Of a DNA stretch of 64,000 nucleotides, positions 25,063 through 54,616 are shown one piece after another. The position numbers were made by a program, and so were the translations under genes. A model generated the notes under the pieces. It was not told the origin of the DNA and searched no databases. It saw nothing but the letters and a program-made list of their open reading frames with translations. How positions within the stretch are numbered: position 1 is the first letter of the stretch; the number at the start of each line of letters is the position of its first letter. The stretch comes from Betaproteobacteria bacterium (GTDB lineage: Bacteria > Pseudomonadota > Gammaproteobacteria > Burkholderiales > UBA6910), in the NCBI GenBank assembly GCA_016183615.1, contig JACPEG010000021.1, positions 62,001 to 126,000 of the forward strand, given 5' to 3'.

Positions 25063-25079
25063 GCCGGACCCACCCGGGT

Positions 25080-25109
25080 TAGACAGAGTCCAAGTCCATG
25101 TTTTATAAT
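25080..25109 (+). promoter_or_regulatory. Sigma-70 promoter of the Fur-family gene, predicting a leaderless mRNA
   Basis: -35 TAGACA (25080-25085, five of six consensus bases), an 18-bp spacer and a perfect -10 TATAAT (25104-25109). Transcription should start at about 25116, directly at the ATG at 25117. The 18 bases TATAAT-GCGCGCC-ATGAA are exactly repeated at the queA start (54459-54442, minus strand). Confidence 0.75.
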
Positions 25110-25116
25110 GCGCGCC

Positions 25117-25539
25117 ATGAAGGCGGCGACCTACACGCGCGACAACATGGCCGATTTGCTGCGGCGGCACGGGATCAACCCCACCCACCAGCGGATCGAG
25201 ATTGCCTATGCGCTGTTCTCCCGGCAGGAGCACCTGTCAGCGGACCAGATTCTTTCCATCGTGAACCTGCGTCACGCGGAGACTTCCAAGGCCACGGTGT
25301 ACAACACGCTGAATCTGTTCCTCCAGAAGCGGCTCATCCGCGAGGTGATCGTGGACCCTAACAAGGTGTTCTACGACCCCAACACCCACGAGCATCATCA
25401 CTTCTATGATGTGGCCACCGGCCAGCTCACCGACATCGACGCCTCCGCCATCCAGGTCACCGGGCTGCCGCAGTTGCCGGACGGCGTCGTCACCGAGGGT
25501 GTGGACATAGTCATCCGCATCCGCCCGAAGACCGCTTGA
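25117..25539 (+). CDS. Fur-family transcriptional regulator (Irr-like)
   Basis: A 140-residue Fur-superfamily repressor. The winged helix (about 10-85) shows NPTHQRIEIAYALFSRQEHLSADQI-type and TSKATVYNTLNLFLQKRLI segments (quoted in part). The metal/heme region has NTHEHHHFYDV, a histidine cluster. There is no CxxC structural zinc site, which is the pattern of Irr- or Mur-like proteins rather than Zur or PerR. ATG 25117 was preferred over 25108 because the latter is part of the -10 box. Possible role: iron or heme-dependent control, or peroxide response. Targets are not visible in the window. Confidence 0.85.
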   Translation: MKAATYTRDNMADLLRRHGINPTHQRIEIAYALFSRQEHLSADQILSIVNLRHAETSKATVYNTLNLFLQKRLIREVIVDPNKVFYDPNTHEHHHFYDVATGQLTDIDASAIQVTGLPQLPDGVVTEGVDIVIRIRPKTA

Positions 25540-25568
25540 TTGCCGGGCTCCCCGCGAATCCCTATAAT
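25540..25568 (+). promoter_or_regulatory. Promoter of tRNA-Thr
   Basis: -35 TTGCCG (25540-25545), a 17-bp spacer and a perfect -10 TATAAT (25563-25568), ending 12 bp before the tRNA 5' end. Confidence 0.7.
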
Positions 25569-25580
25569 CTGCGCCGGTCT

Positions 25581-25656
<76 letters not shown>

Positions 25657-43785: not shown

Positions 43786-43850
43786 GTTTCTGCTGTCGGC
43801 GGTGCCGGACCTCTCCGGGCGCCGACCACGCGGTAGAATTGCGCGGAATC

Positions 43851-44297
43851 ATGGTCTGGAAACCCAATGTCACCGTCGCTGCCGTCATCGAGCGCGACGG
43901 ACGCTTTCTCCTGGTGGAAGAGCACACCGTGAAGGGCGTGCGTTTCAATCAGCCCGCAGGCCACCTTGAGCGCCACGAATCCCTGGTGCAGGGAGTGGTG
44001 CGCGAGACGCTGGAGGAAACGGCCTACCATTTCGCTCCGGAGGCGCTGCTCGGGATTTACCGATGGCATCACCGCGGGACCCGCACCACCTACCTGCGCT
44101 TTGCTTTCGTTGGCCGGGTCACCGGTTTCGAGAGCGGGCGCAAGCTGGACGAGGGGATCATCGGCGCCCACTGGCTGAGCGTGGAGGAGATCCGCTGCAA
44201 CTCGCCTCAGCATCGCAGCCCGCTGGTCCTGCGTTGCATCGAGGACTACCTCGCGGGCAGGCGCTACCCCCTGGAGCTGATCACCCACTATGACTGA
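43851..44297 (+). CDS. nudJ: Nudix phosphohydrolase NudJ
   Basis: A 148-residue Nudix hydrolase. The Nudix box is [20 protein letters not shown] followed by TA, where the family glycine is replaced by Ala; the catalytic REtxEE core is intact. E. coli NudJ hydrolyses nucleoside tri- and diphosphates and HMP-PP and is also adjacent to mnmA. The ATG at 43851 is preferred over a TTG at 43839; a TAGAAT box at 43834-43839 predicts a leader of only about 5 nt. The gene overlaps mnmA by eight bases. Confidence 0.9.
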
Positions 44298-52329: not shown

Positions 52330-54446
<2,117 letters not shown>

Positions 54447-54453
54447 GGCGCGC

Positions 54454-54459
54454 ATTATA
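54454..54459 (-). promoter_or_regulatory. -10 box of queA, predicting a leaderless mRNA
   Basis: The minus-strand sequence TATAAT-GCGCGCC-ATGAA (54459-54442) is identical over 18 nt to the start of the Fur-family gene at 25104-25121. The expected transcription start (about 54447) falls on the ATG. No good -35 was found. Confidence 0.65.
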
Positions 54460-54489
54460 CAGGCGGCCCGCGCGCGCTCCGCGGCCCGG

Positions 54490-54519
54490 TTGCCCGGCCT
54501 CCGCCATATGGTGGATAAT
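54490..54519 (+). promoter_or_regulatory. Promoter of tRNA-Leu
   Basis: TTGCCC (54490-54495), an 18-bp spacer and GATAAT (54514-54519), 10 bp before the tRNA. It is back-to-back with the queA promoter. Confidence 0.6.
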
Positions 54520-54529
54520 CCCCGCCTTT

Positions 54530-54616
54530 GCCGGGATGGCGGAATTGGTAGACGCAGCGGACTCAAAATCCGCCGGTGGTGACACTGTGGGGGTTCGAGT
54601 CCCCCTCCCGGCACCA
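54530..54616 (+). tRNA. tRNA-Leu (anticodon CAA)
   Basis: An 87-nt class II tRNA with CCA encoded. Acceptor GCCGGGA pairs with TCCCGGC; the D-arm contains GGTAGACGC; anticodon stem GCGGA/TCCGC holds loop CTCAAAA (CAA, reads UUG); a long variable arm (CGGTGGTGACACTGTG) and T-arm GGTTCGAGTCC follow. A decayed gene fragment begins right after it. Confidence 0.97.

Follow-up and report, generated by a model that had tools for sequence, protein, structure and literature searches.

In the present study, two unrelated genes in one window (the whole stretch of 64,000 nucleotides that was analysed), a Fur-family regulator gene and queA, were each found with a TATAAT box separated by 7 nt from the start codon. 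Judging from the DNA and its comparison with relatives, we consider it likely that each box belongs to a sigma-70 promoter yielding a leaderless mRNA, and that the identity of the linker at the two genes is coincidental. The prediction of leaderlessness had been made in an initial annotation of this DNA; the recurrence of the spacing in two unrelated families speaks for it, and by comparison it is strongly supported for the Fur-family gene and less so for queA.

The shared sequence, TATAATGCGCGCC-ATGAA, occurs at 25104-25121 on the plus strand and 54459-54442 on the minus strand, both copies being exact, as had been reported, and these remain the only two matches in the window when up to three mismatches are allowed. 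Shuffled windows gave a mean of 0.04 such matches, and none of 100 shuffles gave two. In the 3.74-Mb genome, TATAATGCGCGCC has three copies, of which only the two in the window continue into ATG; the third (L003, G000:C43:23714-23726, minus strand) is followed by a C-rich, repeat-like-looking stretch. The idea that the 18-mer belongs to a repeat or a mobile element was rejected, because the third copy has no ATG downstream and because, by eye, the two window sites share nothing beyond the 18-mer.

Transcription by sigma-70 RNA polymerase usually initiates 7-9 nt past the -10 box, preferably at a purine that follows a pyrimidine. At both genes, the eighth base after the box is the A of the start codon, with C before it; this A is thus the expected start, and transcription would begin on it or within 1-2 bases of it. 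The mRNA would then have no room for a Shine-Dalgarno site, and its 5'-terminal AUG would presumably be read by the leaderless (70S-type) route. An additional in-frame ATG overlaps the -10 box itself, at 25108-25110 (plus) and 54455-54453 (minus) (TATA-ATG-CGC-GCC-ATG), and could not be transcribed from that promoter. The longest-ORF list starts the Fur-family gene at this codon, and automatic gene callers may start both genes three codons early, with an extra M-R-A; for annotation, this concealed ATG is a pitfall in start calling.

The Fur-family gene, its orthologs and a palindrome over the -35 hexamer

The Fur-family gene (25117..25539, plus strand; predicted RNA start 25117) encodes an Irr/PerR-like protein with a Pfam FUR domain (63.1 bits against a cut-off of 23.1, E 3.5e-17), an HHH stretch and no cysteine. 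The best NCBIfam model is IrrA (119.8 against a cut-off of 150), followed by Irr (110.1 against 170), both scores being below the cut-off, as are those for PerRA (82.9 against 200), PerRB (73.6 against 250) and PerR (56.8 against 180); the closest solved structure by sequence is the Fur-family regulator 5nl9_A (E 5e-18). The -10 box TATAAT (25104..25109) and the -35 hexamer TAGACA (25080..25085), separated by an 18-nt spacer, jointly match 11 of 12 consensus positions, and the linker GCGCGCC occupies 25110..25116.

Among 300 genomes of the order, 88, including this one, had a match at E 1e-30 or better, and upstream DNA was gathered for all of them. Six loci (L151, L208, L217, L257, L259 and L261) dropped out, with no ATG near the expected start or no upstream sequence, leaving 82 distinct starts; in L208, a box lies 6 nt before a TTG. 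A -10-like box was defined by a weight score of at least 5 and was counted when 6-8 nt from the ATG. Such a box precedes 53 of the 82 starts, the window gene included, compared with 37 of 4452 other ATGs in the same loci, although the background ATGs are probably mostly intragenic, where -10-like boxes should be rarer than upstream of genes. The better control is the peak in spacing itself: linkers of 6, 7, 8 and 9 nt were observed at 24, 18, 11 and 0 starts, respectively, their length being frequently kept while their sequence varies. The homologs are not independent; a breakdown by family, which exists for the Fur-family count alone, gave at least one box-bearing start in 20 of 24 families. 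The remaining 29 starts have no box at 6-8 nt, including seven of eight in family f44 and both in f34, and these orthologs may be leadered.

The position of the start codon was also considered. Alignments of the Fur-family protein begin at residue 1-9 in 80 of the 88 matches, and QueA alignments start from the first residue for most of the loci listed, the best 80 of 583; because the alignments begin at or near residue 1, the ATG is a credible start at both genes. Some Fur-family orthologs have Met11, which might suggest a later start, but many box-bearing orthologs lack it, and it was therefore rejected as the general start.

The -35 hexamer of the window gene is contained in a 15-bp palindromic box, TTAGACAGAGTCCAA (25079..25093, plus strand), which is shared with orthologous starts. 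Upstream of 55 of the 82 distinct starts, the palindrome TTAGACNNNGTCCAA reaches a score of 10 of 12 or more; palindrome and box occur together at 40 starts, with 13 starts having only the box and 15 only the palindrome. In 41 of these 55, the palindrome begins 34-38 nt ahead of the ATG, and its distance to the -10 box is 24 nt in 46 of the 53 with a scored box and 25 nt in the window. The palindrome is probably the operator of the Fur-family protein itself, which would repress its own gene by binding over the -35 hexamer and thereby shut its own leaderless promoter.

Within its own genome, the palindrome was detected at six places with at most one mismatch, the own site being exact and the other five carrying one mismatch. 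Three of the latter (L171, L172 and L173, near position 1501) lie near genes whose products, read from their translations, are a Cu/Zn superoxide dismutase, a periplasmic iron-binding transport protein and a rubrerythrin, and two (L169 and L170) are not near such genes. It is possible that these copies represent an iron/peroxide regulon of the Fur-family protein; however, a reversed control pattern was commoner than the palindrome in that search (36 against 8 matches), and thus single mismatched copies prove nothing.

The Irr-binding ICE box is TTTAGAA-N3-TTCTAAA. The present protein resembles this system in being nearest to IrrA, in having an HHH stretch without cysteine, and in the 6-3-6 palindrome starting with TTAGA; it differs in the half-site, which is TTAGAC and not TTAGAA, and in the IrrA score below the cut-off. 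Three Fur homologs have been studied in Nitrosomonas europaea (PMC3050691).

queA, comparison genes and genome-wide counts

The second gene, queA (53415..54446, minus strand; predicted RNA start 54446), encodes tRNA preQ1(34) S-adenosylmethionine ribosyltransferase-isomerase (NCBIfam NF001140, 487 bits against a cut-off of 324; Pfam PF02547, E 1.5e-132). Its -10 box TATAAT lies at 54454..54459 and its linker GCGCGCC, a GC-rich discriminator, at 54447..54453. The homolog set comprised 109 loci, namely the best 80 of 583 relatives, mostly from Beta- and Gammaproteobacteria, and 29 of 30 from a second search, with the own gene and eight further second-search matches without a locus left out; after removal of three loci without a start and one duplicate, 105 distinct starts were compared. 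A box at 6-8 nt was found before 25 of the 105, compared with 130 of 13532 other ATGs, and linkers of 6, 7, 8 and 9 nt occurred 4, 7, 14 and 6 times. The bearers include Nitrosomonas (L005, L006, L013 and L008, Nitrosomonas nitrosa Nm90), Gammaproteobacteria such as Chromatiaceae (L028), Lysobacteraceae (L041) and Sedimenticola (L049), and the two same-family relatives G001 and G003, in which TATAAT lies at 8 nt.

The other 80 homologs have no box at 6-8 nt, including the close relatives L109 (70% identity) and L110 (66%). In 35 homologs the best box (score of at least 6.5) lies 10-59 nt from the ATG, and Escherichia coli queA likewise has no 6-8 nt box, its likeliest -10 by eye being TAGACT, 32 nt before the ATG. 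These differences would mean that queA has alternated between a leaderless-like and a leadered-like form, or that part of the homologs were mis-scored. In addition, no recognisable -35 hexamer was found in the window queA promoter (54454-54485, minus strand), the best candidate scoring -3.7, and for this element the leaderless-like queA homologs fall below random sites; the promoter may thus depend on an additional activator or contact. With Rfam at gathering scores, two tRNAs were the only hits in the whole window, and a known RNA such as a riboswitch in front of queA was accordingly rejected.

These observations bear on the view that the transcripts of the two genes, and that of queA in particular, carry a leader, the proximal -10 being a minor or decoy element with the main promoter upstream, or the Fur-family gene starting later, at Met11. 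The missing -35 of queA and the leadered-like promoters of E. coli and many other homologs favour this view; against it stand the 6-8 nt peak in both families, sharp in the Fur-family, the linker without an SD-like site, the QueA alignments from residue 1 in most of the best 80 of 583 loci, and the box-bearing orthologs without Met11. We regard leadered transcripts as unlikely, and the leaderless reading is retained as probable for both genes.

The comparison genes were two, isocitrate lyase and nudJ, both from the same window. A box at 6-8 nt was observed in none of 24 isocitrate lyase relatives (26 tested, two without a start) and in 5 of 28 nudJ relatives (29 tested, one without a start); the 24% found for queA is only moderately higher than the nudJ rate. 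Two readings follow: leaderlessness is common in nudJ too, or queA stands out less than the comparison with background ATGs suggests. In the five nudJ relatives (L297, L303, L308, L310 and L313), 6-7 nt separate a -10-like box from the ATG. Leaderless nudJ transcripts may exist in some relatives; in the window copy, by contrast, the 11-nt linker would leave a leader of about 4 nt. An arrangement similar to that of the two genes had been claimed for this copy: TAGAAT (43834-43839) does lie 11 nt before the ATG (43834..43853, plus strand), but the similarity is weak, as 0.45 matches to TAGAAT followed by 6-11 nt and ATG are expected in the window by chance and none of 28 relatives has a score-5 box at 11 nt.

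SD-like 4-mers were observed in 0 of 28 queA starts with a box and 3 of 70 without, and in 1 of 53 Fur-family starts with a box and 3 of 29 without. The window linker GCGCGCC contains no such site; however, because such 4-mers are rare whether or not a box is present, their absence discriminates little. This weak contrast and the nudJ rate slightly lowered our confidence in the joint reading of the two genes. Two further lines were set aside. First, a purine at -1 was found in 12 of 81 starts with a box and 25 of 99 without, a difference too small for a pyrimidine at this position to support an exact start on A. Second, low structure at the mRNA 5' end (z +2.30 for the Fur-family gene and +0.04 for queA) concerned two sequences only and was not used as support.

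The pattern TATAATN{3,12}ATG gave 24 matches in the own genome, compared with 15 for the reversed pattern, and in 14 of the 21 inspected (L093, L099 and L105 being outside the 21) the linker is 6-9 nt. Besides the two window genes, ORFs starting at such linkers include GlgB (L090), a D-Ala-D-Ala carboxypeptidase S13 (L102) and a DUF4258 protein (L089), all over the Pfam cut-off, a DUF72 protein (L092) and RelE (L098) just under it, and L088 without a Pfam match; six others (L085, L087, L096, L103, L104 and L106) have only short frames of 8-93 codons. In 464 kb with 366 genes called by a crude gene caller, a box was present at 12 of 656 in-frame and 3 of 307 out-of-frame ATGs at score 5, and at 8 of 656 and 0 of 307 at score 6.5, although this caller is weak for a genome-wide leaderless rate and missed queA itself. 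The shortness of the hexamers and the 24 against 15 matches are what could be said for a functionless -10-like hexamer standing before each ATG by pure chance; the recurrence of the box position in relatives and the 11/12 promoter at the Fur-family gene make this explanation extremely improbable.

The shared linker

The initial annotation had raised the possibility that the linker is identical because of selection, either on leaderless initiation or on the initially transcribed sequence, and the comparison does not support this idea. The same-family queA linkers are GCCCGCCC and GCCCGGCC, and those of the nearest relatives of the Fur-family gene are unrelated; within each family the sequence varies, and mainly the length is kept. 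Moreover, the linker is the DNA between the -10 box and the start, and a transcript beginning at the ATG would not include it.

Composition was examined separately in the two families. In 21 leaderless-like queA promoters, the GC content of the 7 nt after the -10 box is 0.88, compared with 0.58 just upstream (higher in 20 of 21, p 8e-5), and in 35 leadered-like queA promoters the discriminator GC is 0.72, compared with 0.57 upstream (22 higher, 9 lower, p 0.001). Because leadered-like queA also have it, the GC-rich stretch is a property of the queA promoter and not of leaderlessness, and it is stronger in the leaderless-like group. Fur-family linkers are not GC-rich (mean 0.47, n=53, with a locus GC of 0.57).

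In favour of an exact 7-bp sequence being selected for leaderless start-site choice or ribosome loading, and hence common to both genes, are the identity itself in two unrelated genes, the matches at six of seven positions in a Fur-family ortholog (CCGCGCC, L220) and in a Nitrosomonas queA (ACGCGCC, L006), and the low expected rate of collision: among 72 own-genome linkers, none of 2556 pairs was identical, with 9.3e-5 expected per pair, or about 0.24 pairs in all. Nevertheless, linkers vary in same-family relatives and across orthologs, the Fur-family linkers have the low GC content given above, and in Gallionella queA (L012) the exact GCGCGCC follows a -10 box located 36 nt from the ATG, that is, in a leadered-like promoter. 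We therefore hold such selection to be very unlikely. In the window, the identity is probably a coincidence recognised post hoc, resting on length and composition and still mildly surprising, in which a 7-nt spacing suiting start-site choice and a GC-rich composition would have produced the same linker twice, through neither shared ancestry nor selection on the exact sequence.

Known leaderless genes, tRNA neighbours and a proposed mechanism

Leaderless genes are already known in Betaproteobacteria, and the Fur-family gene and queA, predicted herein to be leaderless, would be further cases. Zheng et al. (2011, PMC3160421) took as leaderless the TA-led genes, in which a TANNNT box precedes the start codon by about 12 bp, and found them in 9 of 71 beta-proteobacterial genomes, where they make up 2.8-10.6% of genes; both window genes have the same box-to-start placement, their 5' ends being sequence predictions. 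Leaderless transcripts have been measured in other Betaproteobacteria. In Burkholderia cenocepacia, the primary start coincides with the start codon in 72 genes and lies within 10 nt of it in 42, 24 of these being tRNAs, and regulators are over-represented among the rest (PMC4603805); in Cupriavidus metallidurans, 4.67% of primary starts are leaderless, with enrichment of transcription genes (PMC7563307). Because regulators and transcription genes are enriched among leaderless genes, a leaderless Fur-family regulator fits the known pattern. The main texts of these two reports contain no occurrence of queA, and queA is not among the three leaderless mRNAs named in the text on Neisseria gonorrhoeae (PMC4176332).

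No description of leaderless queA was found among the literature matches listed, and mapped queA starts may sit in supplementary tables; the literature matches listed for leaderless Fur-family or Irr genes contained no such case, and those listed for the queA promoter and Fis contained nothing on leaderless queA. Searches for Irr/PerR with rubrerythrin in Betaproteobacteria, for TTAGAC operators and for queA with tRNA-Leu returned no description of these arrangements, nor did the literature on leaderless genes in Gammaproteobacteria, Burkholderia and Betaproteobacteria describe the arrangement of these two genes.

Upstream of queA and divergent from it lies a tRNA-Leu(CAA) (54530..54616, plus strand; ARAGORN and Rfam), with a promoter-like site, TTGCCC-18-GATAAT (54490..54519, plus strand), obtained by consensus scan. 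Of the 102 loci whose upstream DNA was long enough, 46, mostly from Beta- and Gammaproteobacteria, have a divergent tRNA-Leu within the 300 nt preceding queA, and five more have a tRNA-Leu on the same strand. Leaderless-like queA (box at 6-9 nt) was observed in 19 of 46 loci beside a divergent tRNA-Leu, compared with 10 of 55 without (p 0.015, phylogeny not corrected). A compact gap between the two genes as the cause of leaderlessness was rejected, as the gap is no shorter in leaderless-like queA.

Stringent-type sigma-70 promoters, such as those of rRNA and tRNA genes, have a GC-rich discriminator and are inhibited by ppGpp/DksA. The queA discriminators, e.g. GCGCGCC, are similarly GC-rich and resemble those of some own-genome tRNA promoters, such as that of tRNA-Thr, TATAATCTGCGCC, but not of others; the differences from stringent-type promoters are the missing -35 at the window queA and the linkers of Fur-family orthologs, which are not GC-rich. 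The queA promoter, with a discriminator as in many tRNA and rRNA promoters and placed head-to-head with tRNA-Leu(CAA), might be under ppGpp control.

Herein, we tentatively propose a wider interpretation, which we hold to be possible but rather doubtful. Under this proposal, queA would be anciently leaderless in Beta- and Gammaproteobacteria and would be expressed from a tRNA-type promoter with a GC-rich discriminator, head-to-head with tRNA-Leu(CAA), and its expression would be tied to the state of the ribosome both at transcription, through the discriminator, and at translation, through the leaderless AUG. In parallel, an Irr/PerR-like, self-repressed leaderless promoter would have been kept across an order, with operator, -35, -10 and AUG at near-fixed spacing. 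Leaderless genes are usually catalogued genome by genome; two families with a recurrent spacing from -10 to AUG offer a test of whether leaderless initiation itself is selected, and named genes with leadered-like homologs provide natural controls for comparing the stress response of leaderless and leadered versions.

The window also contains, in 25540-25656 on the plus strand, a tRNA-Thr(CGT) that starts 41 bp past the end of the Fur-family gene and has a promoter-like sequence, TTGCCG-17-TATAAT, with the discriminator CTGCGCC.
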